64,000 nt of DNA from Cetobacterium sp. NK01 (GTDB lineage Bacteria > Fusobacteriota > Fusobacteriia > Fusobacteriales > Fusobacteriaceae), in the NCBI RefSeq assembly GCF_024506395.1, contig NZ_JANIBO010000006.1, positions 1 to 64,000 of the forward strand. Direction: 5' to 3'. The notes beneath the pieces are model-generated. The model was given only the letters and a program-made list of their open reading frames with translations. It made no database searches and was not told the origin of the DNA. Shown in pieces: positions 13,894 to 58,063 of the stretch; the first letter of the stretch is position 1, and each line of letters opens with the position of its first letter. Position numbers and translations under genes: made by a program.

Positions 13894-15426
13894 ATGGCAG
13901 TAGTAGAAAAGGATAATTTCAAAGATAATCTTTGGAAAGCGTGTGATAAATTAAGAAACAATATGGATCCAGCAGAGTATAAATATGTGGTTCTAGGATT
14001 GGTATTTTTAAAGTATATAAGTGATAGATTTGAAAGCAAATATAATGAATTAGTTGAAGAAGGAGAAGGTTTCGAAGAGGAAAGAGATGAGTATACAGCA
14101 GAGAATATTTTCTGGGTTCCTAAAGAAGCTAGATGGGCAGAGATAGTTAAAAGTGCAAAAACTCCAGAGATTGGAATAAAAATTGATGAGGCTATGTATG
14201 CTATTGAAAAAGAGAATAAAACATTAAAGGATGTTCTGTATAAGATATATTCAAATCCTCTTTTAGATAAAGGAAAACTAGGAGAATTAATAGATATAGT
14301 TGGTGGAATTAACTTACAAGCTAAAACAGATAAAGGACAAGATGTACTTGGTCAAGTTTATGAGTTTTTCTTAGGAAAATTTGCTAACTCAGAGGGAAAA
14401 AATGGAGGACAATTCTATACTCCAGAGTCTATTGTTAAAACTATAGTTGAGTGTTTAGAGCCTACAAAGGGAAGAGTATATGACCCTGCTTGTGGAAGTG
14501 GAGGTATGTTTGTTCAATCTGAAAAATTTATAGAAAACCATAGTGGAAGAATTGGAGATATATCTGTATTTGGACAAGAGAGTAATGGAACTACTTGGAA
14601 ACTATGTAAGATGAACTTAGCTATTAGAGGAATAGAGGTTGATTTAGGAGAGGAACCAGCTGATACATTTACAAAAGACCAACACAAAGGGAAGAAGATG
14701 GATTATATCATGGCTAATCCACCGTTTAATATAAAAGATTACTGGCATGAATCTTTAGATGGAGATGCTAGATGGAAATATGGTACACCTCCAGAGGGAA
14801 ATGCTAACTATGCTTGGCTACAACATATGGCACACCATTTATCACCAAATGGAACAGCTGGAATAGTTCTAGCAAATGGATCGCTATCATCTAATACTTC
14901 AAATGAGGGAGAGATTAGAAAGAATATGATAGAGGATGATTTAGTAGATTGCGTTGTAGCTCTTCCTGATAAGCTATTTTTAACTACTGGAATTCCAGCG
15001 TGTATATGGTTTTTAAATAGAAACAAAAGTAACCCTAAGCATAGAGAAAGAAATGGAGAGATTCTATTTATAGATGCTAGAAAAATGGGTGCTCTTGTAG
15101 AAAGAAGTTTAAGAGAGTTATCACCTGAAGATATTCAAAAGATAGCTGATACTTACCATATGTGGAGAGGTTCGTATAAAGGTGAGGGAGAGTATGAAGA
15201 TATTCAAGGTTTCTGTAAGAGTGCAACATTAGAAGAAATAAAAGGGCATGAATATATCTTAACTCCAGGAAGATATGTAGGAATAGAAGAAGCAGAGGAC
15301 GATGGAATCCCTTACGAGGAAAAGATGGCAGATCTAAGTGCAAAACTAGCTGAGCAATTTGCAAAGAGCAGACACCTAGAAGAAGAGATAAGAGCTAACC
15401 TAGCTAAGTTAGGATTTGATATATAA
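13894..15426 (+). CDS. hsdM: Type I restriction-modification methyltransferase subunit M
   Basis: 510 aa, typical length for HsdM, intact in both units. It methylates adenine with S-adenosylmethionine within the M2S complex and is also part of the restricting R2M2S complex. An N-terminal helical domain (residues 1-140, starting VEKDNFKDNLWKACDKLR) is followed by the SAM-binding motif DPACGSGG at about residue 197 and the catalytic NPPF motif at about 275. AGGAGGG lies 7 bases before the ATG. Its stop overlaps the first base of the hsdS start (TAATG), so the two are translationally coupled. It heads an operon that runs through hsdS, two nuclease-fold genes and hsdR. Confidence 0.97.
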   Translation: MAVVEKDNFKDNLWKACDKLRNNMDPAEYKYVVLGLVFLKYISDRFESKYNELVEEGEGFEEERDEYTAENIFWVPKEARWAEIVKSAKTPEIGIKIDEAMYAIEKENKTLKDVLYKIYSNPLLDKGKLGELIDIVGGINLQAKTDKGQDVLGQVYEFFLGKFANSEGKNGGQFYTPESIVKTIVECLEPTKGRVYDPACGSGGMFVQSEKFIENHSGRIGDISVFGQESNGTTWKLCKMNLAIRGIEVDLGEEPADTFTKDQHKGKKMDYIMANPPFNIKDYWHESLDGDARWKYGTPPEGNANYAWLQHMAHHLSPNGTAGIVLANGSLSSNTSNEGEIRKNMIEDDLVDCVVALPDKLFLTTGIPACIWFLNRNKSNPKHRERNGEILFIDARKMGALVERSLRELSPEDIQKIADTYHMWRGSYKGEGEYEDIQGFCKSATLEEIKGHEYILTPGRYVGIEEAEDDGIPYEEKMADLSAKLAEQFAKSRHLEEEIRANLAKLGFDI

Positions 15427-16688
15427 TGGTGGAGAATAAAGATATGGAAGAGTTAAAAGAAGGATGGAGAAGAGTTAAACTAGGTGAAGTAGCTGAATAT
15501 ATAAGTAATAAGATAAATACTTCTGAATTGAATGAATGAAAATAACTATATCTCAACAGAAAATATGATAGTAAATAGAGGTGGAGTGACAAAAGCTACA
15601 AATATACCTCAAAATGCTAAGGTTAATTGTTTCAGTGAAAATGATATACTTTTTTCTAATATAAGAACTTATTTTAAAAAATTATGGAAAGCTGATTTTA
15701 ATGGTGGAGCATCAAACGATGTTTTAATAATAAAAGTTTGAATTCAAAAAAATATTTTAAATGACTATCTATATTATATTATGTCAGAAGAAAAATTTTT
15801 TGATTATACAGTAAATACCTCTAAAGGAACAAAAATGCCAAGGGGGGATAAAGCAGCTATTATGCAGTATGAATTTTATATTCCAGAAGATATTAAAGTT
15901 CAACAGAAGATAGCCTCAATATTATCAGCTCTTGATGATAAAATAGAGCTTAATAATGAAATGAATAAAACTCTTGAAGAGATGGCACAAACTCTTTTCA
16001 AAAGATGGTTTATAGATTTTGATTTCCCAAATGAGAATGGAGAGCCATATAGAAGTAGTGGTGGAAAAATGGTAGAGAGTGAACTTGGAGAGATTCCAGA
16101 AGGATGGAGTTTTGATAATATTTCTGAATTTTTTGATATAACAATTGGTAAAACACCTCCTAGAAAGGAAACACAATGGTTTTCTAAAAAAGAAAAGGAT
16201 ATAAAATGGGCTTCAATAAAAGATTTAGGAGAAGCAGGGGTTTACATTTTAAATACAGGAGAAAAAATTACACGAGAAGCCATTGAAAAATTTAATATAA
16301 AAAGGTGGAATCAAATACAGTTATATTAAGTTTTAAACTTACAATAGGTAGAGTAGTAATAACCAATGAAGCTATGGCAACTAATGAGGCTATCGCACAC
16401 TTTACAAATAAAAATATTACTAATATGACAGAATTTTTATATCTTTATTTAAAGAATTTTAACTATAATTCTCTAGGAAATACTTCATCAATCGCAACAG
16501 CAGTAAATTCTAAAATTATAAAAAATATACCTTTTTATTTACCCAATGAAAAACTAATGAGTAAATTTAATGAGATTATAACAAAGATTTTTGAGCAAAT
16601 AAGAGAAAACCAACAAGAAATCCAAGTTCTAACTGAAATAAGAGATATTCTTCTTCCTAAACTTATGAGTGGAGAGATAGAAGTATAA
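15426..16688 (+). pseudogene. hsdS: Type I RM specificity subunit S, frame broken in this copy
   Basis: Intact at 45517-46776 (419 aa). Here there is a 4-base duplication near 15535, changes near 15735 and a loss of A near 16302. None appears in unit 2. Confidence 0.9.
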
Positions 16689-16719
16689 ATGTTAAAGTTG
16701 TGGGGGGTGAGATAATTTA

Positions 16720-17628
16720 ATGCTTATTAAAACATCTAAAGGTAAAGCTGAAAGGATTTTACAAAATGAGTTTAAATTAGAGAAAGAGCTACAAAAATTC
16801 ATGGAAGATAATCTTCAAGAACTCTTAAACTTAGAATTAGTAAAAAGTGAATTTGTAGTGAAAAAATATAGAATTGATACACTTGGATTTGATAAAGAAA
16901 ATAAAACTTTCGTTATTGTTGAATATAAAAGAGGAACTAGCTATAGTGTTATAGATCAAGGATATTCTTATCTTTCAACCGTGCTAAATAATAAAGCTGA
17001 GTTAATTTTAGAATATAACGAAAGAATGAATAAAACTCTTAAAAGAGATGAGATAGATTGGAGTCAAACTAGAATAGTTTTTATATCTCAAAGTTTTTCA
17101 AAATTTCAAAAAGATAGTTTAAACTTTAAAGATTTGCCTATTGAGTTGTACGAAATCAAAAGATATATGGGAGATATTATTTCTTTTGAAACTGTAAAAG
17201 GTAGAGATAATGCTGAAAGTATAAATACCATTTCATCAAAAAGTGAGGAAATAAATCAAGTATCTAAAGAGATAAAGAAATACACTTTAGATGATCACTA
17301 TACAAACTCTAATGGAAACATAATTGAGCTATATAAATTATTTTTAGAAAAAATAGAAGACATGATACCAGATGTAGAGATTGAGCCTAAAAAATTATAT
17401 ATTGCAATTAAAAGCAATAAAAAAAATATAATAGATTTTAGATTATAAAAGAATGCTCTTAAAATGTGGTTAAATGCAAAGAAGGGTACTTTAAACGATT
17501 CTAAGAATTTATCAAAAGATGTATCTAGTACAGGACATTGGGGAAATGGAGATTATGAGGTTTCAATTTCTAATGATGATGAGTTAGAGTATATCTTAAG
17601 TTTAATAAAAGATATAACTAGATTATAA
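16720..17628 (+). pseudogene. PD-(D/E)XK-like plus DUF5655 protein, split by an in-frame stop
   Basis: The frame is open for 242 codons, meets TAA at 17446-17448, then continues in the same frame for 59 more codons to a second stop at 17628. The downstream part (LKMWLNAKKG, then STGHWGNGDYEVSISNDDELEYILSLIK) is the expected C-terminal end of a DUF5655 domain. The same stop occurs in unit 2, so this one is not a read error. The N-terminal part looks nuclease-like: D53, then E68 and K70 in VIVEYKRG, followed by DQGYSYL. An RBS of GGGGGGTGA precedes ATG 16720, 31 bases past hsdS. The protein may still act as a 242-aa form. Confidence 0.75.
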
Positions 17629-17676
17629 TATAGCTAAAAAATATGAATTTAGCTTTAATTTTGGGGGGATAATTTA

Positions 17677-18933
17677 ATGAATAGACATTTAAGTATATTT
17701 AATCCTTTTTCATACACTGGAAGAGAAAATAATTTAACAAGAGCACTGTTAATATTACTAAAAAAAGAACCATTATTTTTGAGTATATTTTTAAATAAAA
17801 TAACAGGAAACTATTTAACAGAAAAATCACTAGATGACGAGATACAAATAGATACTCAAAGAACTTCTAGTAGTTTTGATATAGAAGAAGGAATAGAAAA
17901 AATTTATGGAGCTACTTTAAATACTGTACTTTATAATGAAAATATTCCTGAAAAAATCGAATAAGAGAACCTATAACAGATATATCTATTCAAATAGGAG
18001 AAGTTTTGATTATTATAGAGGTAAAGCCTCACGATGAAGATCCAAGGGCTCAACTTAATAACCAAATGGAAAACCTTAAGTGGGGTAATAAAGAGAAAAA
18101 GTGGAACTATGTTTCTTTAGTTTGGAGAGACTTGTTAAATGCTGCTATTTCTATGGAGAAATTTAATAAAAAATTAAATTCACACAATATATTTTTGAAT
18201 GAATTTAATCACTTTATAGAAGGTAATTATCCTGAATTACTCCCAGTAGTTCCAATTTCAGAAAAACATTCTTTAGAGAGAATAGAGCGAAGAGTAAAGC
18301 AAATCGAAAAAGAGATTAATCAAAGTCTTCATGGAAAAGATTTTGAAGAAGAATTAGATTTTATAAAATTAAAAGATTCCCGTATTGCAGAGAGATTTAA
18401 AATATATGTAGAAGGAAATCAAATAAGTTTAAATATTTGGCCTGGTGATAGTAATTCTCAAGCAAGAACCTTATACAAGAAAAATTTTAACTTGAAAAAA
18501 GTAGAACACAACCTAAAAAATAATTTAAATGTAAAAGTTAAAACTTGATGAGAATTATAATGTTTCAACACATCAATATATACGTTTTGGTCATATTATG
18601 GGAAAAGGTATCTTTTGGGAAGATTTTGAATCTAGAGATGATATAGCCAAAATATATTATGAAATAAGTGGAATTACTTATAAAGATAATAAGGAAAAGT
18701 GGGAAAATTTAAAAGATAACATATCTAAATATGTAGTAGATAAAAAATCGTTTTTAACACAATTTAAAGAAAATTTTGAAGACTCAAATAGAAACTTTGT
18801 AAATATTTGTGTAGGAAACCTTATCAAACTAAGCTTTGATATAAAATATATTGAAAAAATAGAAAAAAATAATGAAACAATCGAATTTTTTAACGAAGTT
18901 ATGAATAAAATATTAGAAAATATAGACTTCTAA
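17677..18933 (+). pseudogene. PD-(D/E)XK nuclease-like protein, frame broken in this copy
   Basis: Intact at 47765-49024 (419 aa). Missing bases near 17957 (A run) and 18537 split this copy into three frames. Confidence 0.85.
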
Positions 18934-18968
18934 TATTAGAAAGTATTTTTAATGATTAGGGGGTAGCA

Positions 18969-21900
18969 ATGAATTTTACAGAGGACGAATTAGAAGCAGC
19001 CTATCTTGAAATATTGGAAGATTTGGGATGGGAATGTATTGATGGTAGAAAATTAGAAAGAGATGACTACCATTCAGTAGTATTAGAAGAGAATTTAAGA
19101 GAAGCAGTTTATAACATAAATAAAGATATGCCAACCTCTACTAAAGAGGAAGCTATTAGAAAAGTAAAACAGCTTTCATATCCTAACTTGATTAAGAGTA
19201 ATGAAGAGTTTCATAGTATGCTAGTCAATGGAGTGGATGTAGGAGAGTATAAAGACAAAGATGGGAACAAACGTTCTGGTGGAAAAGTATATTTAATAGA
19301 TTTTAAAAATATTAAAAAAAATGAGTTTCAAGCTATAAATCAATTTACAATAGTGGGAAACACTAAACGTAGACCAGATATAATACTATTTATCAATGGA
19401 TTACCTCTTGTAGTTATAGAGTTAAAATCTCTAAGTAATGACAACGTAGGTATAAAAGAAGCATATACTCAAATTGAAAGATACAAATATGAGATTACAG
19501 ATCTTTTTAAATATAACTCTTTTATCGTTATAAGTGATGGAGTTAATGCAAAAGCTGGAACTATATCATCAAGTGAAGAAAGATACATGAGCTTTAGAAG
19601 TATTGATGGAATTACAATAGCAGATACAAACTCTTTAATGATGGAAGTTTTAACTCGTGGAATGTTATCTAAGGAAAGAGTATTAGAATTAACTCATGAC
19701 TATATCCTGTTTCTTCAAAGTAAAAACGAAAAAATAAAGATATTAGCTCAGTATCACCAGTTCTTTGCCATAAAAAAAGCACTGGAAAAGACAGCAGATG
19801 CTCGTAGCAATGATGGAAAAATCGGTGTTGTTTGGCATACTCAAGGTAGTGGAAAATCTCTAACTATGACATTTTATACAGGGCAACTTATGAAAAAGTT
19901 TAACAATCCAACAGTTATAGTTTTAACTGATAGAAATGATTTGGACAATCAACTTTTCGGAACGTTCTCAAAAGCTCAAAGTTATCTAATAGAGACACCA
20001 AAACAAGCAGATGATAAAGATAGATTAAAAGAACTACTAAATGTAAGTAGTAGTGGGAATAATATTCTCTACAATTCAGAAGTTTGCTCCTAAAGCTGGA
20101 GAAGTTGTAGAAGCTATTAGTACTAGAAATGACATATATATTATAGCCGATGAGGCTCATAGATCGCAGTATGGATTAGATGCTAAAATGGATGCAGATG
20201 GAAACAGTAAATACGGGTATGCTAAACATATTCGTGATGCACTTCCCAATGCAAACTATATTGGATTTACAGGAACTCCTATAGACTTTGATGATAAATC
20301 TACAACTGCTGTATTTGGTGACTATATAGATACTTACGATATGACAAGAGCTGTTGAAGATGGAGCTACTGTTAAAATCTATTATGAAAATAGATTTATA
20401 AAGCTAGACATTCCATATCCTGTTTTATCTGAACTTGATGGTGACTTTGAAGAGATTATGGAAGGTCAAGAAGAAATGACTGTTGAACGTACCAAAAAAG
20501 ATATTACAAAAATGGAAGCTATTATTGGTTCTCAAAATAGAATAAGAACTTTGGCTCAGGATTTCATAGAACACTGGGAGATGAGAAAAAATAACTCTTT
20601 TGGAAAATGTATGATAGTAGCTATGTCTCGTAAAATATGTGTGGATTTATATAATGAGATTGTAAGTTTAAGACCAGAGTGGCACAATGAAGATAAAGCT
20701 AAAGGTAAAATAAAAGTTGTTATGACAAGTGATATTAGTAAAGACCCTATGGAGTTTAAGCAACACTTTACAACAAAACAGGAAAGAGAAGAGCTCGCTA
20801 ATAGAATGAAAGATGACAGTGATGAGTTAGAGATTGTTATAGTTCGTGATATGTGGCTAACAGGGTTTGACGTTCCATCAATGCATACTATGTATATTGA
20901 TAAACCTATGGTAGGGCATAACTTAATGCAAGCTATTGCAAGGGTAAATAGAGTATACAAAGATAAAAGTGGTGGCTTAGTTGTAGACTATATTGGAATA
21001 GGAGATGCACTTAAAAAAGCACTAAGACAATATACAGCAAACGATCAAAAGACAACAGGAGTAGATACAGAAAAAGCTGTGGCACTTATGATTGAACACT
21101 ATGAGATTGTAAAAGAGATATTCCATCACTTTGATTATTCAAAATATAAAAGTGATAGTGCTTTAGAGCGTGCTAGAATTATTATAGAGGGGATGGATTA
21201 CATCTTAGGTTTTGAAAATGATGAACCTGGAATTAAGAAAAGATTTATTGATAATGTTTTAGCACTGGCTAAGGCTCATTCTCTATGTATAACAACTCGT
21301 GATGGACAGGCTTTAAATGAGGAGATAAGTTACTTTAAAGCTGTTAAAGCTAGTGTTATTAAATTAGAAACTGAGGATAAAGATAATCCTAAAAAACTAA
21401 CTCAGGCTCAGATAAATGAAAAAATAGCTTCACTTATGGCTAAGACAATTATATCTGAAGATGTTATAGATGTTTATTCAGAGTTAGGACTTGATAATCC
21501 AGATATATCTATTCTTTCAGATGAGTTTTTAAAAGAGGTTGAGAAGATAAAGTATAAAAACTTAGCTGTTGAGATGTTAAGAAAGCTAATAGAGGGTAAG
21601 ATTAAATACTCTAGTAGAAAAAATCTAGTAGTAGCTGAGAAGTTCTCAGAAAGACTTCAAAAGGCTATGAGTTCTTATAGAAATAAGGCTTTAACAAGTT
21701 TAGAGATAATGGAAGAACTTATAAAGATGGCTAAGGAGTTTATGGAGACTCATAAAGAGGGAGATTCACTTGGTTTAACAGAGGATGAGGTAGCTTTCTA
21801 TGATGCTTTAACTCGTGATGAAAAAGTAAAAGAGATGTTAGGTGACGATATACTGGTACAGATAACAAAAGAGCTGACAGAGACTATTAAGAAAAGTATG

Positions 21901-22057
21901 ACTATAGATTGGTATGATAAAGAGAGTGTACAAGCTCAAATGAGAAGATCTATAAGAAGACTTCTTAAAAAATTTGGTTATCCTCCAGAAGATACAGAGG
22001 ATGCAACAGAACTTGTGTTAAAACAAGCTAAGGTAATGTAGAAGAAGTAATATTTAA
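18969..22057 (+). pseudogene. hsdR: Type I restriction endonuclease subunit R, frame broken in this copy
   Basis: Frame shifts near 20050 (GTAGTAGTGGG against GTAGTGGTGG in unit 2) and near 22038 close to the 3' end. Between 20053 and 22041 the helicase and C-terminal parts are open. Unit 2 is broken elsewhere (50674), so combining the copies gives one full-length protein; see 49060. Confidence 0.92.
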
Positions 22058-27963: not shown

Positions 27964-27966
27964 GTA

Positions 27967-29834: not shown

Positions 29835-29849
29835 AAATGGAGGAGTGTT

Positions 29850-30311: not shown

Positions 30312-30328
30312 AAAAGGGGAGGATAGAT

Positions 30329-31107: not shown

Positions 31108-31919
31108 TAAAAAAGATGAGAAAGATATTACGCAAAAAGATTTGAATAAGATATTTTGGAGATCTTTTCAAATGGAATTCTCATGGAATTATGAAAGACA
31201 AATGAACTTAGCATATGCATATGCAATAGCACCAATATTAAAAAAAATATATACAAATAATCATTTAGAATTAAAAAAAGCTTTGAAACGTCATCTAGAG
31301 TTTTTTAATATGACTCCTTGGATTGTAACTTTAATGTTAGGAATATCAGTAGTTCTTGAAGAGGGAAATAAAAAGATGGAAAATTTGATGAAAACTCAAT
31401 AAATGGAATAAAAACAGCATTAATGGGTCCATTATCAGGGATAGGAGATTCTTTCTTTTGGGGAACTTTAAGATTAATTGCTACAGGAATAGGAACAGCT
31501 CTTTCATTACAAGGAAATATATTAGGTCCAATTCTATTTCTATTGGTATTTAATATTCCACATATAATTATAAGATATCTTTTTATAAAGTTAGGGTATA
31601 AATTGGGGTAGACTTTTTAACTAAACTTGAAAAATCAGGAGCAGTTGAGAAAGTTACTTACGGAGCAACTATATTAGGATTAATTGTTATTGGAGGAATG
31701 ACAGCAAGAATGGTAGATATTTCAACACCATTAGCTTTTAAAGCTGGAGGTTCAACAATAGAAGTCCAAAGTATTTTAGATGATATAATGCCTGGTATTT
31801 TAAAATTAGGAATGTTTGGTATTGTGTATTATTTATTAAATAAAAATGTTAAACCAATAACAATACTTTTAGGAATGGCAATATTTGGAATTTTTGGAAC
31901 TTTAGTTGGGTTCTTTTAA
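31094..31919 (+). pseudogene. gfrD: PTS mannose-family IID component, frame broken in this copy
   Basis: Two losses, near 31370 (A run) and 31606 (G run). Intact at 1000-1827 and 61195-62022. Confidence 0.87.
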
Positions 31920-31930
31920 GAGGTACATTT

Positions 31931-32986: not shown

Positions 32987-33005
32987 ATATAAATGGAGGG
33001 TAATT

Positions 33006-34118: not shown

Positions 34119-34310
34119 TTAAATATCAAGTGTAAAATTAAAATATGTCTTAGTTAATTCAATAAAAGTTTTACAGGCCTTTGACAAGTAAGTTCCTTTT
34201 TTATAACTAACTACAACATCCCAACTTGGATTTCCTTTAATAGGAAAATAAGAAAGAGACTGGATACTTTTTTTTGCATAGTAATGGGGAACTATGCTAC
34301 AACATAAAGA
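34119..34310 (-). pseudogene. LysR-type regulator, C-terminal remnant cut by IS1
   Basis: Identical to 4022-4213: 63 codons of a LysR substrate-binding-domain end running from the IS edge to a stop. Its truncation is the same in both units, so it is real. Confidence 0.6.
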
Positions 34311-35760: not shown

Positions 35761-35768
35761 CTATGAAG
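35761..35768. repeat. 8-bp target-site duplication CTATGAAG, right side of the composite
   Basis: Directly follows the right end of IS1; pairs with 26511-26518. Confidence 0.75.
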
Positions 35769-43984: not shown

Positions 43985-45517
43985 ATGGCAGTAGTAGAAA
44001 AGGATAATTTCAAAGATAATCTTTGGAAAGCGTGTGATAAATTAAGAAACAATATGGATCCAGCAGAGTATAAATATGTGGTTCTAGGATTGGTATTTTT
44101 AAAGTATATAAGTGATAGATTTGAAAGCAAATATAATGAATTAGTTGAAGAAGGAGAAGGTTTCGAAGAGGAAAGAGATGAGTATACAGCAGAGAATATT
44201 TTCTGGGTTCCTAAAGAAGCTAGATGGGCAGAGATAGTTAAAAGTGCAAAAACTCCAGAGATTGGAATAAAAATTGATGAGGCTATGTATGCTATTGAAA
44301 AAGAGAATAAAACATTAAAGGATGTTCTGTATAAGATATATTCAAATCCTCTTTTAGATAAAGGAAAACTAGGAGAATTAATAGATATAGTTGGTGGAAT
44401 TAACTTACAAGCTAAAACAGATAAAGGACAAGATGTACTTGGTCAAGTTTATGAGTTTTTCTTAGGAAAATTTGCTAACTCAGAGGGAAAAAATGGAGGA
44501 CAATTCTATACTCCAGAGTCTATTGTTAAAACTATAGTTGAGTGTTTAGAGCCTACAAAGGGAAGAGTATATGACCCTGCTTGTGGAAGTGGAGGTATGT
44601 TTGTTCAATCTGAAAAATTTATAGAAAACCATAGTGGAAGAATTGGAGATATATCTGTATTTGGACAAGAGAGTAATGGAACTACTTGGAAACTATGTAA
44701 GATGAACTTAGCTATTAGAGGAATAGAGGTTGATTTAGGAGAGGAACCAGCTGATACATTTACAAAAGACCAACACAAAGGGAAGAAGATGGATTATATC
44801 ATGGCTAATCCACCGTTTAATATAAAAGATTACTGGCATGAATCTTTAGATGGAGATGCTAGATGGAAATATGGTACACCTCCAGAGGGAAATGCTAACT
44901 ATGCTTGGCTACAACATATGGCACACCATTTATCACCAAATGGAACAGCTGGAATAGTTCTAGCAAATGGATCGCTATCATCTAATACTTCAAATGAGGG
45001 AGAGATTAGAAAGAATATGATAGAGGATGATTTAGTAGATTGCGTTGTAGCTCTTCCTGATAAGCTATTTTTAACTACTGGAATTCCAGCGTGTATATGG
45101 TTTTTAAATAGAAACAAAAGTAACCCTAAGCATAGAGAAAGAAATGGAGAGATTCTATTTATAGATGCTAGAAAAATGGGTGCTCTTGTAGAAAGAAGTT
45201 TAAGAGAGTTATCACCTGAAGATATTCAAAAGATAGCTGATACTTACCATATGTGGAGAGGTTCGTATAAAGGTGAGGGAGAGTATGAAGATATTCAAGG
45301 TTTCTGTAAGAGTGCAACATTAGAAGAAATAAAAGGGCATGAATATATCTTAACTCCAGGAAGATATGTAGGAATAGAAGAAGCAGAGGACGATGGAATC
45401 CCTTACGAGGAAAAGATGGCAGATCTAAGTGCAAAACTAGCTGAGCAATTTGCAAAGAGCAGACACCTAGAAGAAGAGATAAGAGCTAACCTAGCTAAGT
45501 TAGGATTTGATATATAA
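43985..45517 (+). CDS. hsdM: Type I restriction-modification methyltransferase subunit M
   Basis: Second intact copy, same 510-aa product as 13894-15426. Its last base is the first base of hsdS. Confidence 0.97.
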   Translation: MAVVEKDNFKDNLWKACDKLRNNMDPAEYKYVVLGLVFLKYISDRFESKYNELVEEGEGFEEERDEYTAENIFWVPKEARWAEIVKSAKTPEIGIKIDEAMYAIEKENKTLKDVLYKIYSNPLLDKGKLGELIDIVGGINLQAKTDKGQDVLGQVYEFFLGKFANSEGKNGGQFYTPESIVKTIVECLEPTKGRVYDPACGSGGMFVQSEKFIENHSGRIGDISVFGQESNGTTWKLCKMNLAIRGIEVDLGEEPADTFTKDQHKGKKMDYIMANPPFNIKDYWHESLDGDARWKYGTPPEGNANYAWLQHMAHHLSPNGTAGIVLANGSLSSNTSNEGEIRKNMIEDDLVDCVVALPDKLFLTTGIPACIWFLNRNKSNPKHRERNGEILFIDARKMGALVERSLRELSPEDIQKIADTYHMWRGSYKGEGEYEDIQGFCKSATLEEIKGHEYILTPGRYVGIEEAEDDGIPYEEKMADLSAKLAEQFAKSRHLEEEIRANLAKLGFDI

Positions 45518-46776
45518 TGGTGGAGAATAAAGATATGGAAGAGTTAAAAGAAGGATGGAGAAGAGTTAAACTAGGTGAAGTAGCTGAATATATAAGTAAT
45601 AAGATAAATACTTCTGAATTGAATGAAAATAACTATATCTCAACAGAAAATATGATAGTAAATAGAGGTGGAGTGACAAAAGCTACAAATATACCTCAAA
45701 ATGCTAAGGTTAATTGTTTCAGTGAAAATGATATACTTTTTTCTAATATAAGAACTTATTTTAAAAAATTATGGAAAGCTGATTTTAATGGTGGAGCATC
45801 AAACGATGTTTTAATAATAAGAAGTTTGAATTCAAAAAATATTTTAAATGACTATCTATATTATATTATGTCAGAAGAAAAATTTTTTGATTATACAGTA
45901 AATACCTCTAAAGGAACAAAAATGCCAAGGGGGGATAAAGCAGCTATTATGCAGTATGAATTTTATATTCCAGAAGATATTAAAGTTCAACAGAAGATAG
46001 CCTCAATATTATCAGCTCTTGATGATAAAATAGAGCTTAATAATGAAATGAATAAAACTCTTGAAGAGATGGCACAAACTCTTTTCAAAAGATGGTTTAT
46101 AGATTTTGATTTCCCAAATGAGAATGGAGAGCCATATAGAAGTAGTGGTGGAAAAATGGTAGAGAGTGAACTTGGAGAGATTCCAGAAGGATGGAGTTTT
46201 GATAATATTTCTGAATTTTTTGATATAACAATTGGTAAAACACCTCCTAGAAAGGAAACACAATGGTTTTCTAAAAAAGAAAAGGATATAAAATGGGCTT
46301 CAATAAAAGATTTAGGAGAAGCAGGGGTTTACATTTTAAATACAGGAGAAAAAATTACACGAGAAGCCATTGAAAAATTTAATATAAAAAAGGTGGAATC
46401 AAATACAGTTATATTAAGTTTTAAACTTACAATAGGTAGAGTAGTAATAACCAATGAAGCTATGGCAACTAATGAGGCTATCGCACACTTTACAAATAAA
46501 AATATTACTAATATGACAGAATTTTTATATCTTTATTTAAAGAATTTTAACTATAATTCTCTAGGAAATACTTCATCAATCGCAACAGCAGTAAATTCTA
46601 AAATTATAAAAAATATACCTTTTTATTTACCCAATGAAAAACTAATGAGTAAATTTAATGAGATTATAACAAAGATTTTTGAGCAAATAAGAGAAAACCA
46701 ACAAGAAATCCAAGTTCTAACTGAAATAAGAGATATTCTTCTTCCTAAACTTATGAGTGGAGAGATAGAAGTATAA
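45517..46776 (+). CDS. hsdS: Type I restriction-modification specificity subunit S
   Basis: 419 aa, usual length. It sets the DNA sequence that the M and R subunits modify or cut. Two target-recognition domains: residues 12-155 (GWRRVKLGEVAEYIS to the YIPEDIKVQQKIASILSALDD end) and about 225-385 (PEGWSFDNISEFFDITIGKTPP onward). Each is followed by a conserved helical spacer: KIELNNEMNKTLEEMAQTLF near 167-190, and the C-terminal FEQIRENQQEIQVLTEIRD. It ends in LLPKLMSGEIEV, a typical HsdS terminus. ATG 45517 overlaps the hsdM stop; a second ATG at 45535 with GGAG upstream is also possible. Intact only here. The target sequence cannot be told from the protein. Confidence 0.95.
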   Translation: MVENKDMEELKEGWRRVKLGEVAEYISNKINTSELNENNYISTENMIVNRGGVTKATNIPQNAKVNCFSENDILFSNIRTYFKKLWKADFNGGASNDVLIIRSLNSKNILNDYLYYIMSEEKFFDYTVNTSKGTKMPRGDKAAIMQYEFYIPEDIKVQQKIASILSALDDKIELNNEMNKTLEEMAQTLFKRWFIDFDFPNENGEPYRSSGGKMVESELGEIPEGWSFDNISEFFDITIGKTPPRKETQWFSKKEKDIKWASIKDLGEAGVYILNTGEKITREAIEKFNIKKVESNTVILSFKLTIGRVVITNEAMATNEAIAHFTNKNITNMTEFLYLYLKNFNYNSLGNTSSIATAVNSKIIKNIPFYLPNEKLMSKFNEIITKIFEQIRENQQEIQVLTEIRDILLPKLMSGEIEV

Positions 46777-46807
46777 ATGTTAAAGTTGTGGGGGGTGAGA
46801 TAATTTA

Positions 46808-47716
46808 ATGCTTATTAAAACATCTAAAGGTAAAGCTGAAAGGATTTTACAAAATGAGTTTAAATTAGAGAAAGAGCTACAAAAATTCATGGAAGATAAT
46901 CTTCAAGAACTCTTAAACTTAGAATTAGTAAAAAGTGAATTTGTAGTGAAAAAATATAGAATTGATACACTTGGATTTGATAAAGAAAATAAAACTTTCG
47001 TTATTGTTGAATATAAAAGAGGAACTAGCTATAGTGTTATAGATCAAGGATATTCTTATCTTTCAACCGTGCTAAATAATAAAGCTGAGTTAATTTTAGA
47101 ATATAACGAAAGAATGAATAAAACTCTTAAAAGAGATGAGATAGATTGCAGTCAAACTAGAATAGTATTTATATCTCAAAGTTTTTCAAAATTTCAAAAA
47201 GATAGTTTAAACTTTAAAGATTTGCGTATTGTGTTGTAGGAAATCAAAAGATATATGGGAGATATTATTTCTTTTGAAACTGTAAAAGGTAGAGATAATG
47301 CTGAAAGTATAAATACCATTTCATCAAAAAGTGAGGAAATAAATCAAGTATCTAAAGAGATAAAGAAATACACTTTAGATGATCACTATACAAACTCTAA
47401 TGGAAACATAATTGAGCTATATAAATTATTTTTAGAAAAAATAGAAGACATGATACCAGATGTAGAGATTGAGCCTAAAAAATTATATATTGCAATTAAA
47501 AGCAATAAAAAAAATATAATAGATTTTAGATTATAAAAGAATGCTCTTAAAATGTGGTTAAATGCAAAGAAGGGTACTTTAAACGATTCTAAGAATTTAT
47601 CAAAAGATGTATCTAGTACAGGACATTGGGGAAATGGAGATTATGAGGTTTCAATTTCTAATGATGATGAGTTAGAGTATATCTTAAGTTTAATAAAAGA
47701 TATAACTAGATTATAA
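46808..47716 (+). pseudogene. PD-(D/E)XK-like plus DUF5655 protein, with two stops in this copy
   Basis: Carries the same in-frame TAA (47534-47536) as unit 1. It also has several base substitutions between 47148 and 47240, one of which makes a TAG at 47237-47239. The substitution cluster is absent from unit 1. See 16720-17628 for domain description. Confidence 0.72.
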
Positions 47717-47764
47717 TATAGCTAAAAAATATGAATTTAGCTTTAATTTTGGGGGGATAATTTA

Positions 47765-49024
47765 ATGAATAGACATTTAAGTATATTTAATCCTTTTTCA
47801 TACACTGGAAGAGAAAATAATTTAACAAGAGCACTGTTAATATTACTAAAAAAAGAACCATTATTTTTGAGTATATTTTTAAATAAAATAACAGGAAACT
47901 ATTTAACAGAAAAATCACTAGATGACGAGATACAAATAGATACTCAAAGAACTTCTAGTAGTTTTGATATAGAAGAAGGAATAGAAAAAATTTATGGAGC
48001 TACTTTAAATACTGTACTTTATAATGAAAATATTCCTGAAAAAAATCGAATAAGAGAACCTATAACAGATATATCTATTCAAATAGGAGAAGTTTTGATT
48101 ATTATAGAGGTAAAGCCTCACGATGAAGATCCAAGGGCTCAACTTAATAACCAAATGGAAAACCTTAAGTGGGGTAATAAAGAGAAAAAGTGGAACTATG
48201 TTTCTTTAGTTTGGAGAGACTTGTTAAATGCTGCTATTTCTATGGAGAAATTTAATAAAAAATTAAATTCACACAATATATTTTTGAATGAATTTAATCA
48301 CTTTATAGAAGGTAATTATCCTGAATTACTCCCAGTAGTTCCAATTTCAGAAAAACATTCTTTAGAGAGAATAGAGCGAAGAGTAAAGCAAATCGAAAAA
48401 GAGATTAATCAAAGTCTTCATGGAAAAGATTTTGAAGAAGAATTAGATTTTATAAAATTAAAAGATTCCCGTATTGCAGAGAGATTTAAAATATATGTAG
48501 AAGGAAATCAAATAAGTTTAAATATTTGGCCTGGTGATAGTAATTCTCAAGCAAGAACCTTATACAAGAAAAATTTTAACTTGAAAAAAGTAGAACACAA
48601 CCTAAAAAATAATTTAAATGTAAAAGATTTAAAACTTGATGAGAATTATAATGTTTCAACACATCAATATATACGTTTTGGTCATATTATGGGAAAAGGT
48701 ATCTTTTGGGAAGATTTTGAATCTAGAGATGATATAGCCAAAATATATTATGAAATAAGTGGAATTACTTATAAAGATAATAAGGAAAAGTGGGAAAATT
48801 TAAAAGATAACATATCTAAATATGTAGTAGATAAAAAATCGTTTTTAACACAATTTAAAGAAAATTTTGAAGACTCAAATAGAAACTTTGTAAATATTTG
48901 TGTAGGAAACCTTATCAAACTAAGCTTTGATATAAAATATATTGAAAAAATAGAAAAAAATAATGAAACAATCGAATTTTTTAACGAAGTTATGAATAAA
49001 ATATTAGAAAATATAGACTTCTAA
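47765..49024 (+). CDS. PD-(D/E)XK nuclease-like protein in the hsd operon, 419 aa
   Basis: Intact only here. The N-terminus SIFNPFSYTGRENNLTRALLILL is distinctive. A nuclease-fold core follows: D102 in ITDISI, then E115 and K117 in IIIEVKP, i.e. the D...ExK signature, with QLNNQMENL after it. Residues 205-225 are strongly charged and helical (RIERRVKQIEKEINQ). The C-terminal half is not recognised. GGGGGG lies 9 bases before ATG 47765, 48 bases after the DUF5655 gene and 35 bases before hsdR. It is in the operon but is not a standard RM subunit. It may be an added defence effector or a modulator of HsdR. I do not recognise a named family. Confidence 0.7.
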   Translation: MNRHLSIFNPFSYTGRENNLTRALLILLKKEPLFLSIFLNKITGNYLTEKSLDDEIQIDTQRTSSSFDIEEGIEKIYGATLNTVLYNENIPEKNRIREPITDISIQIGEVLIIIEVKPHDEDPRAQLNNQMENLKWGNKEKKWNYVSLVWRDLLNAAISMEKFNKKLNSHNIFLNEFNHFIEGNYPELLPVVPISEKHSLERIERRVKQIEKEINQSLHGKDFEEELDFIKLKDSRIAERFKIYVEGNQISLNIWPGDSNSQARTLYKKNFNLKKVEHNLKNNLNVKDLKLDENYNVSTHQYIRFGHIMGKGIFWEDFESRDDIAKIYYEISGITYKDNKEKWENLKDNISKYVVDKKSFLTQFKENFEDSNRNFVNICVGNLIKLSFDIKYIEKIEKNNETIEFFNEVMNKILENIDF

Positions 49025-49059
49025 TATTAGAAAGTATTTTTAATGATTAGGGGGTAGCA

Positions 49060-52000
49060 ATGAATTTTACAGAGGACGAATTAGAAGCAGCCTATCTTGA
49101 AATATTGGAAGATTTGGGATGGGAATGTATTGATGGTAGAAAATTAGAAAGAGATGACTACCATTCAGTAGTATTAGAAGAGAATTTAAGAGAAGCAGTT
49201 TATAACATAAATAAAGATATGCCAACCTCTACTAAAGAGGAAGCTATTAGAAAAGTAAAACAGCTTTCATATCCTAACTTGATTAAGAGTAATGAAGAGT
49301 TTCATAGTATGCTAGTCAATGGAGTGGATGTAGGAGAGTATAAAGACAAAGATGGGAACAAACGTTCTGGTGGAAAAGTATATTTAATAGATTTTAAAAA
49401 TATTAAAAAAAATGAGTTTCAAGCTATAAATCAATTTACAATAGTGGGAAACACTAAACGTAGACCAGATATAATACTATTTATCAATGGATTACCTCTT
49501 GTAGTTATAGAGTTAAAATCTCTAAGTAATGACAACGTAGGTATAAAAGAAGCATATACTCAAATTGAAAGATACAAATATGAGATTACAGATCTTTTTA
49601 AATATAACTCTTTTATCGTTATAAGTGATGGAGTTAATGCAAAAGCTGGAACTATATCATCAAGTGAAGAAAGATACATGAGCTTTAGAAGTATTGATGG
49701 AATTACAATAGCAGATACAAACTCTTTAATGATGGAAGTTTTAACTCGTGGAATGTTATCTAAGGAAAGAGTATTAGAATTAACTCATGACTATATCCTG
49801 TTTCTTCAAAGTAAAAACGAAAAAATAAAGATATTAGCTCAGTATCACCAGTTCTTTGCCATAAAAAAAGCACTGGAAAAGACAGCAGATGCTCGTAGCA
49901 ATGATGGAAAAATCGGTGTTGTTTGGCATACTCAAGGTAGTGGAAAATCTCTAACTATGACATTTTATACAGGGCAACTTATGAAAAAGTTTAACAATCC
50001 AACAGTTATAGTTTTAACTGATAGAAATGATTTGGACAATCAACTTTTCGGAACGTTCTCAAAAGCTCAAAGTTATCTAATAGAGACACCAAAACAAGCA
50101 GATGATAAAGATAGATTAAAAGAACTACTAAATGTAAGTAGTGGTGGAATAATATTCTCTACAATTCAGAAGTTTGCTCCTAAAGCTGGAGAAGTTGTAG
50201 AAGCTATTAGTACTAGAAATGACATATATATTATAGCCGATGAGGCTCATAGATCGCAGTATGGATTAGATGCTAAAATGGATGCAGATGGAAACAGTAA
50301 ATACGGGTATGCTAAACATATTCGTGATGCACTTCCCAATGCAAACTATATTGGATTTACAGGAACTCCTATAGACTTTGATGATAAATCTACAACTGCT
50401 GTATTTGGTGACTATATAGATACTTACGATATGACAAGAGCTGTTGAAGATGGAGCTACTGTTAAAATCTATTATGAAAATAGATTTATAAAGCTAGACA
50501 TTCCATATCCTGTTTTATCTGAACTTGATGGTGACTTTGAAGAGATTATGGAAGGTCAAGAAGAAATGACTGTTGAACGTACCAAAAAAGATATTACAAA
50601 AATGGAAGCTATTATTGGTTCTCAAAATAGAATAAGAACTTTGGCTCAGGATTTCATAGAACACTGGGAGATGAAAAAATAACTCTTTTGGAAAATGTAT
50701 GATAGTAGCTATGTCTCGTAAAATATGTGTGGATTTATATAATGAGATTGTAAGTTTAAGACCAGAGTGGCACAATGAAGATAAAGCTAAAGGTAAAATA
50801 AAAGTTGTTATGACAAGTGATATTAGTAAAGACCCTATGGAGTTTAAGCAACACTTTACAACAAAACAGGAAAGAGAAGAGCTCGCTAATAGAATGAAAG
50901 ATGACAGTGATGAGTTAGAGATTGTTATAGTTCGTGATATGTGGCTAACAGGGTTTGACGTTCCATCAATGCATACTATGTATATTGATAAACCTATGGT
51001 AGGGCATAACTTAATGCAAGCTATTGCAAGGGTAAATAGAGTATACAAAGATAAAAGTGGTGGCTTAGTTGTAGACTATATTGGAATAGGAGATGCACTT
51101 AAAAAAGCACTAAGACAATATACAGCAAACGATCAAAAGACAACAGGAGTAGATACAGAAAAAGCTGTGGCACTTATGATTGAACACTATGAGATTGTAA
51201 AAGAGATATTCCATCACTTTGATTATTCAAAATATAAAAGTGATAGTGCTTTAGAGCGTGCTAGAATTATTATAGAGGGGATGGATTACATCTTAGGTTT
51301 TGAAAATGATGAACCTGGAATTAAGAAAAGATTTATTGATAATGTTTTAGCACTGGCTAAGGCTCATTCTCTATGTATAACAACTCGTGATGGACAGGCT
51401 TTAAATGAGGAGATAAGTTACTTTAAAGCTGTTAAAGCTAGTGTTATTAAATTAGAAACTGAGGATAAAGATAATCCTAAAAAACTAACTCAGGCTCAGA
51501 TAAATGAAAAAATAGCTTCACTTATGGCTAAGACAATTATATCTGAAGATGTTATAGATGTTTATTCAGAGTTAGGACTTGATAATCCAGATATATCTAT
51601 TCTTTCAGATGAGTTTTTAAAAGAGGTTGAGAAGATAAAGTATAAAAACTTAGCTGTTGAGATGTTAAGAAAGCTAATAGAGGGTAAGATTAAATACTCT
51701 AGTAGAAAAAATCTAGTAGTAGCTGAGAAGTTCTCAGAAAGACTTCAAAAGGCTATGAGTTCTTATAGAAATAAGGCTTTAACAAGTTTAGAGATAATGG
51801 AAGAACTTATAAAGATGGCTAAGGAGTTTATGGAGACTCATAAAGAGGGAGATTCACTTGGTTTAACAGAGGATGAGGTAGCTTTCTATGATGCTTTAAC
51901 TCGTGATGAAAAAGTAAAAGAGATGTTAGGTGACGATATACTGGTACAGATAACAAAAGAGCTGACAGAGACTATTAAGAAAAGTATGACTATAGATTGG

Positions 52001-52147
52001 TATGATAAAGAGAGTGTACAAGCTCAAATGAGAAGATCTATAAGAAGACTTCTTAAAAAATTTGGTTATCCTCCAGAAGATACAGAGGATGCAACAGAAC
52101 TTGTGTTAAAACAAGCTAAGGTAATGTGTGAAGAGAGTAATATTTAA
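49060..52147 (+). pseudogene. hsdR: Type I restriction endonuclease subunit R, one frameshift in this copy
   Basis: About 1029 aa when the frame is restored, typical for HsdR. One shift near 50674 (A run). Unit 1 is intact at that place, so the real gene is probably whole. The N-terminal nuclease domain has RRPDIILFINGLPLVVIELKS near 135-152 (PD...ExK). The motor has Walker A GSGKS at about 293, DEAH at about 394, FTGTP near 424, and [18 protein letters not shown] near 645. The C-terminal helical domain binds the MS core. It translocates DNA with ATP and cuts far from unmethylated sites. RBS GGGGG lies 6 bases before the ATG. Last gene of the operon; a terminator follows. Confidence 0.93.
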
Positions 52148-54561: not shown

Positions 54562-54743
54562 ATAAGGTAACCTAATGACTACTATAAGGTAACCTAATGA
54601 CTAATATAAGGTAACCTAATGACTACTATAAGGTAACCTAATGACTACTAAAGGTATATTTAGTAATTGACAAGTTACCTTTCAAGGTGCTATTCTTTGA
54701 TTGATAAATATTTTCATATAAGAAAGGTAACCTAATGACTACT
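54562..54743 (+). repeat. Iterons: four tandem 22-bp repeats plus a fifth next to rep
   Basis: Unit-2 copy of 24469-24650: tandem block 54562-54649 and fifth copy 54722-54743. Confidence 0.92.
54667..54696 (+). promoter_or_regulatory. rep promoter with embedded inverted half-iteron
   Basis: TTGACA, 18 bases, TATTCT, as at 24574-24603. Confidence 0.55.
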
Positions 54744-54773
54744 ATTAAAGTAAATTGTAAAAAGGGGGAGCGA

Positions 54774-55843
54774 ATGGACTTAATTAAATATCATAATGAT
54801 ATTAATAAATTGAAGTTGGGGAATTTTACAACAAAAGAATTAGATGTATTTTTTAGTCTATTATTAAAGTCTAGAGATGAAAAAACTAAAGATATAATAA
54901 TATCTTACTCTGAAATTAAAGAGTTAATACAAGAAGAACAAAACCAAGCTAGACTAACTAATTATATAAGAGGAGTATCAAGAAAATTAAAAGAATTAAA
55001 TCAAGAGATAGAATTACCAAATGGGGACATAGTTATTTTTGGGTTGTTTGATGTTATAACAATAAAACCAAAGGATAAAAGTATAGTCTTTTCAGTAAAT
55101 GAAATATTTAAATATATGATAGATGATTTAGTAAAAAATTTTACAATGTTTGATTTAAGAGAGCTTGTGAGTTTAAAAGGAATATATCCTAAAACATTGT
55201 TTAGACTATTAAAACAATGGGAGAGTACAGGAGAATATATTGTAAAAATAAATGAGTTTAGAGAAATAATGGGCATTCCTAACACTTATTTGATGAAAAA
55301 TATAAGGCAAAAGATTTTTAAACCTTGTTTAGAAGAATTGGGAAAAAACTTTGAAAGATTAGAACTTAAAGAATTGAAAAAAGGAAGAAATGTTGAAACG
55401 TTAGTTTTCACCTGGAAAGCTAAAAAGAAAAAGCAAGTTGAACAAAATTCAGTTATAAAGAAAAAGCAATTCTTAGGGGAAAAGGATTTGAAAGAATATC
55501 AAGATCAAAGCCAAGAGAGAAAAGAAAATAAATTAGTAAATCAAGTAGAAAAAATAGATAAAATTAAAATATCTAAAGCTGACTATGAAGAATTATATAA
55601 AAAATACCTGGAAGAAAATAGAGAAACACATAATCCGTTTATAAAAAAGGTTTTGATATAGCTAATAAATCTAAATATGAAATTGTAGAGTTTGAACAAC
55701 CTAAATTAGAGCAGACAAAAATATATACAGTTGAGGATATTCCTAAAGAGAAACTTTTGGATAAAAACGGCAATAAACTAAGAGGTATGTTACTAAATAA
55801 CAGAGTAAACAAAATATTAAAAGAAATGAATGCTACGGTATAA
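54774..55843 (+). pseudogene. rep: Rep_3-family replication initiator, frame broken in this copy
   Basis: One A is missing near 55649, so the last 65 codons are out of frame. The copies also differ near 55137 (Asn here, Ile-Phe context with Lys-Ile in unit 1). Intact at 24681-25751. Confidence 0.9.
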
Positions 55844-56602: not shown

Positions 56603-56610
56603 CTATGAAG
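56603..56610. repeat. 8-bp target-site duplication CTATGAAG, left side of the composite
   Basis: Directly before the left end of IS2 in unit 2. Confidence 0.75.
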
Positions 56611-58060
56611 GGGAGTATACCAAATTTAGTGTAAATTAACTTCTTAGCTATCAAATTTTAAATGTCCAAATAGGCTATCTTAACTTGGGTACTTTTAAAA
56701 GTACCTATTGATAAGATAGCTTTTTTTATTTCAAATATTTCTCTAAACGACCTTCATACTCTATTGATAACATTCTTAAAATTCCTTCCCAACCTCTAAT
56801 TTTTTGATTCCATTTTTTCATAATATTTTTACTAGAAAGATAAAGAATCTTTAATAAAGCATCTTCACTAGGGTAAATAGATCTAGAATTACTAACTTTT
56901 CTAAATTGGCTATTTAAACTTTCAATTATATTAGTTGTATAAATCATCTTTCTAATTTCCATAGGAAAGTTGAAAAAAAGCGATAACTCATTCCAATTAG
57001 TATACCAACTTCTAAGAGCTGGCGCAAATTCAGGAAGGTCATTTTTCAAAGCTTCCAAAGCTTGAAATGCTGATTCCGCATTAGTAACATTGTAAATATT
57101 TTTAAGTTGTTGGGCGTAGCTTTTTCTATCTTGATAATTCATAAATCTTAATGTATTTCTAATTTGATGTACCATACAACGTTGTATTTGAGCCTCTGGA
57201 AAAATAGTTGAGATTGCGTCACCAAATCCTTTTAAACCATCAATAGACACAGTAAAAATATCCTCAACCCCTCTAGATCTTAATTCGTCTACAACTTTTA
57301 ACCAAAATTTAGAACTTTCATTCTCTCCTATTACAATACTCAAAATATCCTTTTTTCCTTCTAGGTCTATTCCTAAAACAACATATGCAGCTCTATTTGA
57401 AACTTTACCATTACTTTTAATATTGAAATGTATTGCATCCATGAAAACAAAAGGATAACATTTTTGTAATGGCCTATTTTTCCAAGTATCTATCTCTTCA
57501 AAAACCTTATCAGTAATTCTACTAATCTGCGACGCTGAGAACGTCAATCCATAAATCTCTTCAAGATGAGCATTAATCTCAGAAATAGTCATTCCACGCC
57601 CATACATAGAGATAATTTTATCTTCAATATCAGAAATATCTCTAGAATATTTGGGAACAATTGTTGGTTCAAATTGACCTTCCCTATCTCTAGGAATATC
57701 AACTTGAACTTTTCCAAGAGAAGTATTAACTTGCTTAGAATTGTATCCATTTCTACTGTTGGTAGTGTTGGCGCTTGATTCTCTGTCGTATTTGTCATAT
57801 CCAATAGATTCATCAAATTCAGCTTGCATCAAGATATTAACCATATCTTTAAACATACTTTTCATAAAATCTTGGGCATCATTAGCAGATTTAATCTTGT
57901 TTTCTTCAATTAATTGTTTAACAAGTGGATTTACTTCTGAATTTTTTCTAGCCATAAAAAAACCTCCTCAGTTATTAATTTAATTATACAAATTAATAGC
58001 CAAGAAGGTAAAATATATATATTCAATTTTTACAATTTACACTAAATTTGGGAAACCCTC
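56611..58060 (-). mobile_element. IS256-family insertion sequence, copy IS2
   Basis: 1450 bp, complete, same ends as IS1 and about 1% different from it. The right end is followed by GTATTACT, three bases from the stop of the second rep gene. Confidence 0.9.
56726..57955 (-). CDS. IS256-family (Mutator-type) transposase of IS2
   Basis: 409 aa and intact; differs from the IS1 transposase at residue 33 (Ser for Asn). The catalytic D173, D239 and E345 are present. See 34426-35655 for the description. With both transposases intact, the composite could still be mobile. Confidence 0.95.
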   Translation of the reverse strand: MARKNSEVNPLVKQLIEENKIKSANDAQDFMKSMFKDMVNILMQAEFDESIGYDKYDRESSANTTNSRNGYNSKQVNTSLGKVQVDIPRDREGQFEPTIVPKYSRDISDIEDKIISMYGRGMTISEINAHLEEIYGLTFSASQISRITDKVFEEIDTWKNRPLQKCYPFVFMDAIHFNIKSNGKVSNRAAYVVLGIDLEGKKDILSIVIGENESSKFWLKVVDELRSRGVEDIFTVSIDGLKGFGDAISTIFPEAQIQRCMVHQIRNTLRFMNYQDRKSYAQQLKNIYNVTNAESAFQALEALKNDLPEFAPALRSWYTNWNELSLFFNFPMEIRKMIYTTNIIESLNSQFRKVSNSRSIYPSEDALLKILYLSSKNIMKKWNQKIRGWEGILRMLSIEYEGRLEKYLK

Positions 58061-58063
58061 GTA

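Follow-up and report, generated by a model that had tools for sequence, protein, structure and literature searches.

The hsd operon of Cetobacterium sp. NK01

We analysed a 64,000-base stretch of Cetobacterium sp. NK01 DNA (hereafter the window; contig NZ_JANIBO010000006.1), which carries a type I restriction-modification (RM) operon with two additional genes, here called X and Y, lying between hsdS and hsdR (Table 1). The five genes, in the order hsdM-hsdS-X-Y-hsdR, are co-directional, and HsdM, HsdS and HsdR are strongly backed by Pfam. The original prediction, made from the sequence of this locus, gave the intergenic gaps as 31 to 48 bases, which holds for hsdS-X (31), X-Y (48) and Y-hsdR (35), whereas hsdM and hsdS overlap by 1 base. 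It further proposed that three PD-(D/E)XK folds are combined in this one operon; only the HsdR nuclease domain (PF04313) has a firm profile match, and the fold is likely for X and Y.

The operon had been treated as single, and a second copy of it was overlooked. A ~30.1-kb plasmid-like unit makes up the window in 2.1 tandem copies, positions 1-33897 and 30092-64000 being 99.7% identical over 33.9 kb, and the whole contig of 65,419 bases holds about 2.17 unit copies. The copies are separated by 26 substitutions and 63 indel columns, and 43 of these columns lie in homopolymers of 3 or more. Because the differences concentrate in homopolymer indels, the contig is probably an uncorrected long-read concatemer of a circular plasmid; a genuine plasmid dimer fits less well. 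The gene counts and frameshifts of this record are unreliable and should not be taken at face value. Y is intact in the reported copy only, and hsdR is disrupted in each of the copies, at differing positions (an intact relative, in locus L061, has 1029 residues). Each unit also carries two copies of a ~1.46-kb element with a 409-residue transposase (4207-5668, 26513-27967, 34304-35764 and 56605-58064), which by eye we take to be IS256-like. Sugar-uptake genes on the unit (29412-34034) encode phosphotransferase system EIIA- and EIIB-like proteins and two SIS-type isomerases, as read by eye from the translation.

The first of the two additional genes, X, had been described as a nuclease with a DUF5655 tail. 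All of its Pfam scores lie under the respective cut-offs (DUF5655, 23.4 bits versus 24; NucS_C, 17.3 versus 24; HSDR_N_2, 17.1 versus 25), yet it strongly matches the PADLOC profile PDC-S18 (E = 1.6e-95, X residues 3-241 on profile positions 4-242 of 302), which qualifies as a full-length match. Judged by this profile, X is not new and is a member of the catalogued candidate PDC-S18. One in-frame stop in X (47237-47239) is found in the reported copy only, and another (47534-47536, equivalent to 17446-17448) is present in both copies and removes the DUF5655-like tail; an intact relative of 303 residues is encoded in locus L066. Five of the inter-copy substitutions crowd into 90 bases within X (47149-47239 versus 17061-17151).

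Table 1. Positions of the hsd operon genes, the gene slot and the replication gene in the window
Feature	Position	Strand	Remarks
hsdM, copy 2	43985..45517	+	510 aa; PF02384 2e-115, PF12161 6e-25; PADLOC MTase_I
hsdS, copy 2	45517..46776	+	419 aa; PF01420 in two stretches; PADLOC Specificity_I 7e-122
Cargo slot, hsdS stop to hsdR start	46777..49059	+	X and Y here, different genes in relatives
X, PDC-S18 family	46808..47716	+	NucS_C-like N part, DUF5655-like tail; span reads through internal stops
Y, unnamed nuclease-like family	47765..49024	+	419 aa, intact; N domain 1-196, C domain about 200-419
hsdR, copy 2	49060..52147	+	two pieces, frameshift near 50682-50699; PF04313, PF18766, PF11867; TIGR00348
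Whole operon, copy 1	13894..22041	+	99.7% identity of 1-33897 to 30092-64000
hsdM, copy 1	13894-15426	+	counterpart of copy-2 hsdM
hsdS, copy 1	about 15426-16688	+	disrupted by indels
Y, copy 1	17677-18933	+	split into three open reading frames
hsdR, copy 1	18969-22041	+	likewise frameshifted, at another place
Rep3-type replication initiator	54735..55661	+	PF01051 1e-18, PF21205 2e-12; supports plasmid

Exchange of genes between hsdS and hsdR

The N-terminal part of HsdR was searched in 98 genomes of the phylum, 14 of which matched at E <= 1e-60, and 11 of the resulting regions were examined alongside two loci carrying Y (L008 and L009), a 33%-identity match in genome G074 being left out. Locus L061, from a genome of the same genus (G002), is 98.9% identical to the window from hsdM to mid-hsdS and 98.1% identical in hsdR; identity is 88% in the final ~100 bases of hsdS, and no DNA at all is shared in 46791-49049. 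The shared DNA ends at 46790 in L061 and resumes there at 49050, and in L062, L063, L066 and L067 at 49042-49049, right before the hsdR start at 49060. In place of X and Y, L061 carries a 170-residue open reading frame (ORF), a 108-residue protein (PDC-S09) and a HepT-like protein.

The other relatives hold yet other genes at this position. A 170-residue ORF is combined with Fic in L063, and a 168-residue ORF with a Rep3-like gene, a 108-residue protein sharing 95% identity with its L061 counterpart and a 219-residue ORF in L062. X accompanies YhcG in L066 and an AbiLi-like ATPase plus an unassigned protein in L067, the hsdS of which falls outside the contig, whereas L064 has a split X with two ORFs and a reversed hsdS-like piece ahead of it. 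A weakly DUF3800-like protein and further unassigned genes fill the position in L065, and Y follows a kinase-like gene in L008 and two small ORFs in L009. All ten loci of the closest HsdR group (the window and nine at 66-98% identity, two with a broken hsdR) hold genes before hsdR, and no two full sets are alike, X being found in four, Y in three and the 168-170-residue ORF in three. Among the more distant loci, L069 and L070 are without such genes, L068 differs in gene order and L071 has a 305-residue ORF ahead of hsdR.

The region from the hsdS stop to the hsdR start is a slot, the contents of which are exchanged while the backbone stays constant. Y behaves as embedded cargo, lying between hsd genes and being replaced in the close relative L061 and across the ten-locus survey. 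It does not behave as a constant core subunit of type I systems, since it is missing from the near-identical backbone of L061 and from another operon (L116, below) that has no insert. The hsdM-hsdS interval also holds genes, namely a Schlafen/AlbA_2 gene in L009 and a PDC-S02 protein with a relative in L065. Just upstream of hsdM in L009 (641-3295) there are two genes directed away from the hsd operon, presumably SIR2-type as judged by eye.

The Y family within and outside RM operons

Scanning genome contigs with Y as a single sequence returned nothing; a four-sequence alignment did find loci, and this alignment-based contig scan yielded 29. Relatives of Y are present in 2 of the 98 genomes of the phylum beyond the window's own and on one plasmid, the latter being the sole match when plasmids, phage records and viral contigs were searched. 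Sets of 244 and 395 sampled genomes added two further loci (L079 and L082), and a sample of 398 genomes from the phylum of Vibrio comitans contained no Y besides its centre. Y is evidently rare, given how few relatives these samples hold. After removal of L014 (the same record as L008), L035 (an ORF layout equal to that of L033) and the duplicates L080 (of L028) and L081 (of L037), the collection comprised 33 loci, the window and 32 others, in Fusobacteriota, Pseudomonadota and Bacteroidota. L039, L041 and L042, which are frameshifted or cut off, were kept out of the alignments and included in the context count, and L079 and L082 were added to the tree, not to the 28-member alignment. L033 and L035 are two contigs of one Pedobacter genome with ~21-kb stretches around Y and a matching ORF layout near it, reflecting either a large duplication or an assembly artefact.

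Whether Y recurs between hsd genes in unrelated hosts was a question raised by the original prediction. It does so at 12 of the 33 loci, in three architectures: hsdS-Y-hsdR in Fusobacteriota (the window, L008 and L009), hsdS-Y-hsdR with an EcoEI-type R gene (L017 and L029), and Y between two hsdM-type genes, M1 and M2, of operons resembling N6-methyladenine/N4-methylcytosine (m6A/m4C) type I systems (L015, L019, L020, L022, L036, L039 and L079). Type I operons are roughly estimated to occupy well below 1% of a genome, so that the 11 embedded loci among 32 (window excluded) appear to be far above chance. Four more loci are partly within or near RM genes. L018 has the order hsdM-hsdS-Y, and its 3.7 kb of downstream sequence shows a helicase-like ORF and no hsdR; this ORF was considered as HsdR and rejected, being a helicase-like protein at 22-23% identity. 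In L025, an EcoEI-type hsdR lies downstream of Y, and the 1.4 kb of upstream contig sequence lacks any recognised hsd gene, whereas Y of L016 is located about 1.2 kb past hsdR. In L042 (7061-10276), Y is cut by the contig end and starts 6 bases past a res gene (PF19778, ResIII), which we take to be of type III; upstream there are two ORFs that contain DPPY.

Relics of hsdM adjoin Y at four loci (L023, L026, L027 and L041), and 12 loci lie outside RM operons (L005, L021, L024 on a 5.3-kb contig, L028, L030-L034, L037, L038 and L040), although in L032 genes resembling R and M follow Y at a distance of about 1.8 kb. L082 sits at a contig edge and was left unclassified. The original prediction would have been undermined by a Y found mostly outside defence loci; present or past association with RM genes is seen at 20 of the 33 loci and none at 12. 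We also grouped 216 neighbour proteins within four genes of Y at 30 loci (without the window, L079 and L082). The largest recurring groups were HsdM, HsdR and HsdS, the HsdR group also including a helicase-like protein from each of L018 and L032. No group unrelated to RM extended beyond three loci (ORFs of at least 60 residues), and no adjacent antitoxin was recognised among them.

In L022, M1 and M2 are 50% identical, and throughout the seven Y-bearing M1-Y-M2 operons M1 has the motifs AGEF/NPPF and M2 the motifs AAEF/NPPY, except that AGEF lies outside the portion covered in L015 and in another frame of the broken M1 of L039. These motif pairs are described as marks of m6A/m4C type I systems (PMC9613975). 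The likeness to PacII-type systems concerns the host operon, not Y, and the accessible part of their description mentions no gene in the M1-M2 interval (PMC9613975). Within the order of the L022 genome, the interval contains Y (L022 and L079), a GmrSD-like gene (L113), a 291-residue ORF free of Pfam matches (L114), a 77-residue ORF (L115) or nothing (L116); it is also a slot. The GmrSD-like gene, which occupies the place of Y in an m6A/m4C type I operon, is at L113:3109-4893.

In three Psychrobacter loci (L026, L027 and L041), Y lies between the final 29 codons of M1 and roughly the initial 115 of M2, and the M2 remnant has shared stops in L026 and L027; Y itself is intact in these two and frameshifted in L041. 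At the Leucothrix locus L023, an N-terminal relic of M1 precedes Y. Downstream of Y in L026 (3445-6896) there are a helicase plus phosphoribosyltransferase protein and then a DprA-like protein, and relatives of both follow Y in L027. The ratio of nonsynonymous to synonymous substitution rates (dN/dS) was 0.046-0.195 in seven of nine Y pairs (two were saturated), including 0.149 for the relic pair L026/L027 and 0.046-0.082 for five solo pairs. These codon comparisons show that solo Y genes are under purifying selection in places where no hsd genes are adjacent. In the tree, in which relics were labelled solo and L016 and L018 embedded, embedded and solo Y interleave, with 7 label changes, at least 4 of them forced by supported branches.

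These results bear on the proposal that Y is an undescribed component of the operon. An undescribed nuclease-like family that recurs in RM operons is what we find; membership in this type I system is not supported, because the L061 backbone carries other cargo, Y occupies three architectures at differing positions, and selection persists where no hsd gene is adjacent. Y as an RM subunit was rejected on the cargo swap and the solo genes. A looser version, in which Y would join the restriction complex as a second nuclease and improve cleavage of foreign DNA, we consider very unlikely. It would account for the operon position, the short gaps, the overlapping reading frames of the M1-Y-M2 loci and the fact that RM genes are the sole widely recurring neighbours, but the near-identical L061 backbone lacks Y, the M1-M2 interval can be empty (L116), GmrSD-like (L113) or taken by another ORF (L114), and solo Y and two relic Y genes remain intact.

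Y as a candidate immune nuclease

Y has the residues D102 and E115-V-K117 and the start NPFSYTGRENNLTRA, as described originally, and the failure to recognise it was fair: Y of the window has no Pfam match at E <= 1, two chance-level NCBIfam matches, no PHROGs match and one weak local PADLOC match (PDC-S43, 0.035). None of the scanned members matched a PADLOC profile over its full length. Twenty residues are invariant in all 28 aligned members (H4, L5, E17, N18, L20, T21, R22, L24, D102, E115, K117, Q126, L127, Q130, W150, R206, P256, Q262, W343 and G381). They include a PD-(D/E)XK catalytic set, D102, E115 and K117 together with E17, Q126 and Q130, conserved down to 19% identity with Y of the window. 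Assignment to PDC-M15A was rejected, as the match, seen in 3 of 28 members with a best E of 9e-6, is local, covering about 40-60 residues that surround ExK, and is absent for Y of the window. Stray matches of single members, given here with their best E, to PF20207 (DUF6568; 2.6e-4 in 1 of 28), PF13588 (HSDR_N_2; 0.034 in 10 of 28) and phrog_28490 (8.6e-4 in 2 of 27) were not used.

Predicted models had confidence scores (pLDDT) of 86 for the whole of Y and 87 for its N domain. In structure comparison with VIA, the top three rows for the N domain were McrC (6hz4; Z 4.8, 3.6 Å, 95 residues), MspJI (4f0q; Z 3.1, 4.3 Å, 107 residues) and Bse634I (3v1z; Z 2.8, 4.5 Å, 118 residues), which we take to be PD-(D/E)XK restriction nucleases, two of them modification-dependent; rows 4 to 12 were unrelated proteins. 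The three nucleases differ from the N domain in their partners and share 8-17% identity with it; at such low Z scores, common membership would be no more than putative. Foldseek returned nothing at E <= 0.001 against the Protein Data Bank or viral models, and a profile search of solved structures gave weak matches, mostly to ribosomal proteins. The best row for the C domain, a secretion chaperone (1xkp_B; Z 6.6, 3.3 Å, 112 residues), is within the common range of the tool and was not used. Given how weak the structural matches are, Y might instead be inactive as a nuclease and act as a nuclease-fold regulator, an antitoxin-like protein or a structural protein. We regard this as extremely unlikely, as none of the 28 aligned members departs from the catalytic set.

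We propose, with a probability of roughly 0.7, that Y is modular cargo of type I RM operons rather than a subunit, and likely a self-sufficient PD-(D/E)XK nuclease directed against incoming DNA. The proposal would start from the slot, where content is swapped on an unchanged backbone, and would build on the presence of Y in slots of several RM operon types and apart from them, intact and under purifying selection where hsd genes are not adjacent, with no other widely recurring partner. Its N domain, judged by the invariant residues E17, D102, E115-x-K117, Q126 and Q130, is strongly suggested to be a metal-dependent nuclease. Because many loci have no adjacent cognate methylase and no antitoxin, Y would have to sort self from non-self alone. 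Most likely the C domain would sense a feature of foreign or modified DNA, in the manner of type IV enzymes, or a cue of infection, and then license cleavage. With respect to action independent of a cognate methyltransferase, 12 of the 33 loci are outside RM operons, and both relic genomes checked have hsdR elsewhere. Residence in an RM operon may couple the expression of Y to restriction and cover invaders that the type I enzyme cannot cut, by analogy with TgvAB. A one-gene nuclease with its own trigger is the simplest reading, because Y has no fixed partner, no constant neighbouring methylase and no single RM type.

Alternatively, Y could be a guard of the RM enzyme. The intact type I complex would keep it inactive, and phage antirestriction proteins would release it, so that host and phage nucleic acid would be cut and infection stopped. 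There is a precedent in PrrC, described as a guard that is encoded inside ecoprrI and activated by T4 Stp, whereas RloC is described as activated by DNA breaks (PMC12707154); prrC is a nuclease-effector gene embedded in a type I locus (PMC12707154), a position that the candidate nuclease gene Y shares. Y does sit within several kinds of type I operon, no immunity gene recurs beside it, and hsdR elsewhere in the two relic genomes checked would permit action in trans. We nevertheless consider this unlikely. Twelve of the 33 loci lack a surrounding hsd operon and four have relics only, yet solo Y is under purifying selection, and a single guard would have to suit classical type I, m6A/m4C type I and perhaps type III enzymes. 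Moreover, PrrC and RloC are described as anticodon nucleases sharing an ABC (ATPase) part, and Pfam finds neither feature in Y: no ABC-ATPase occurs among the matches of Y of the window or among the 18 families that at least one of the 28 members hits at E <= 1, and no HEPN or GmrSD match was found.

Several observations weigh against the self-sufficient nuclease as well. The M1-Y-M2 operons are tightly packed (on most sides the gap is between -8 and 0 bases), which suits a subunit or a co-regulated partner too. On the tree, the embedded and solo labels show some clustering (equally low numbers of changes arose in 22-28 of 500 shuffles), and the fusobacterial Y genes form one deep clade that was found embedded only (3 of 3), so that life outside operons is shown for other branches. 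In the two relic genomes checked, those of L026 and L027, two and three HSDR_N matches over the cut-off occur elsewhere; Y there is free of an adjacent RM system, not of every RM system. The loci were collected largely through two short sequence patterns, which makes the proportions rough, and the fold evidence consists of the low Z scores given above and no Foldseek match.

Embedding in RM operons, including at the hsdS-hsdR site, is already published. TgvAB is embedded in a five-gene type I RM operon on VPI-2 of Vibrio cholerae, where HsdR restriction is reported to have no direct part in the phage defence by TgvAB and TgvAB to act on phages with hypermodified genomes (PMC11411939). Y, a candidate defence gene, shares the embedded position but encodes a single protein that carries PD-(D/E)XK-like motifs and lacks a GmrSD match, whereas TgvAB is a two-protein GmrSD-type system. 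DarTG2 lies between hsdS and hsdR in enteropathogenic Escherichia coli, at a site called a potential hotspot and in an island described as under RptR (PMC12255303); it shares the slot with Y but is a toxin-antitoxin system, and Y has no widely recurring partner. The PADLOC candidates PDC-S18, to which X belongs, and PDC-M15A are reported to have been found by guilt-by-embedding, the same logic as applied here to Y (PMC12988326). The Y family itself was not found in Pfam, NCBIfam (searched with Y of the window), PADLOC (2023), PHROGs or the literature, the scope of which left out preprints and most subscription papers.

It is a tentative possibility, falling somewhat short of an even chance, that Y founds a new family of single-protein immune nucleases that would distinguish self from non-self through a C-terminal domain of no known fold, serving as plug-in cargo of classical type I, m6A/m4C type I and type III operons and outliving their decay. 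The near-identical operons of the window and L061 mark the borders of the slot and offer a direct test of effector swapping on a constant restriction backbone. Genes embedded in RM operons have proved fruitful for the discovery of new immune systems, and Y, which recurs across three phyla and in RM systems of several types, offers a concrete candidate to be assayed for defence as a single gene.

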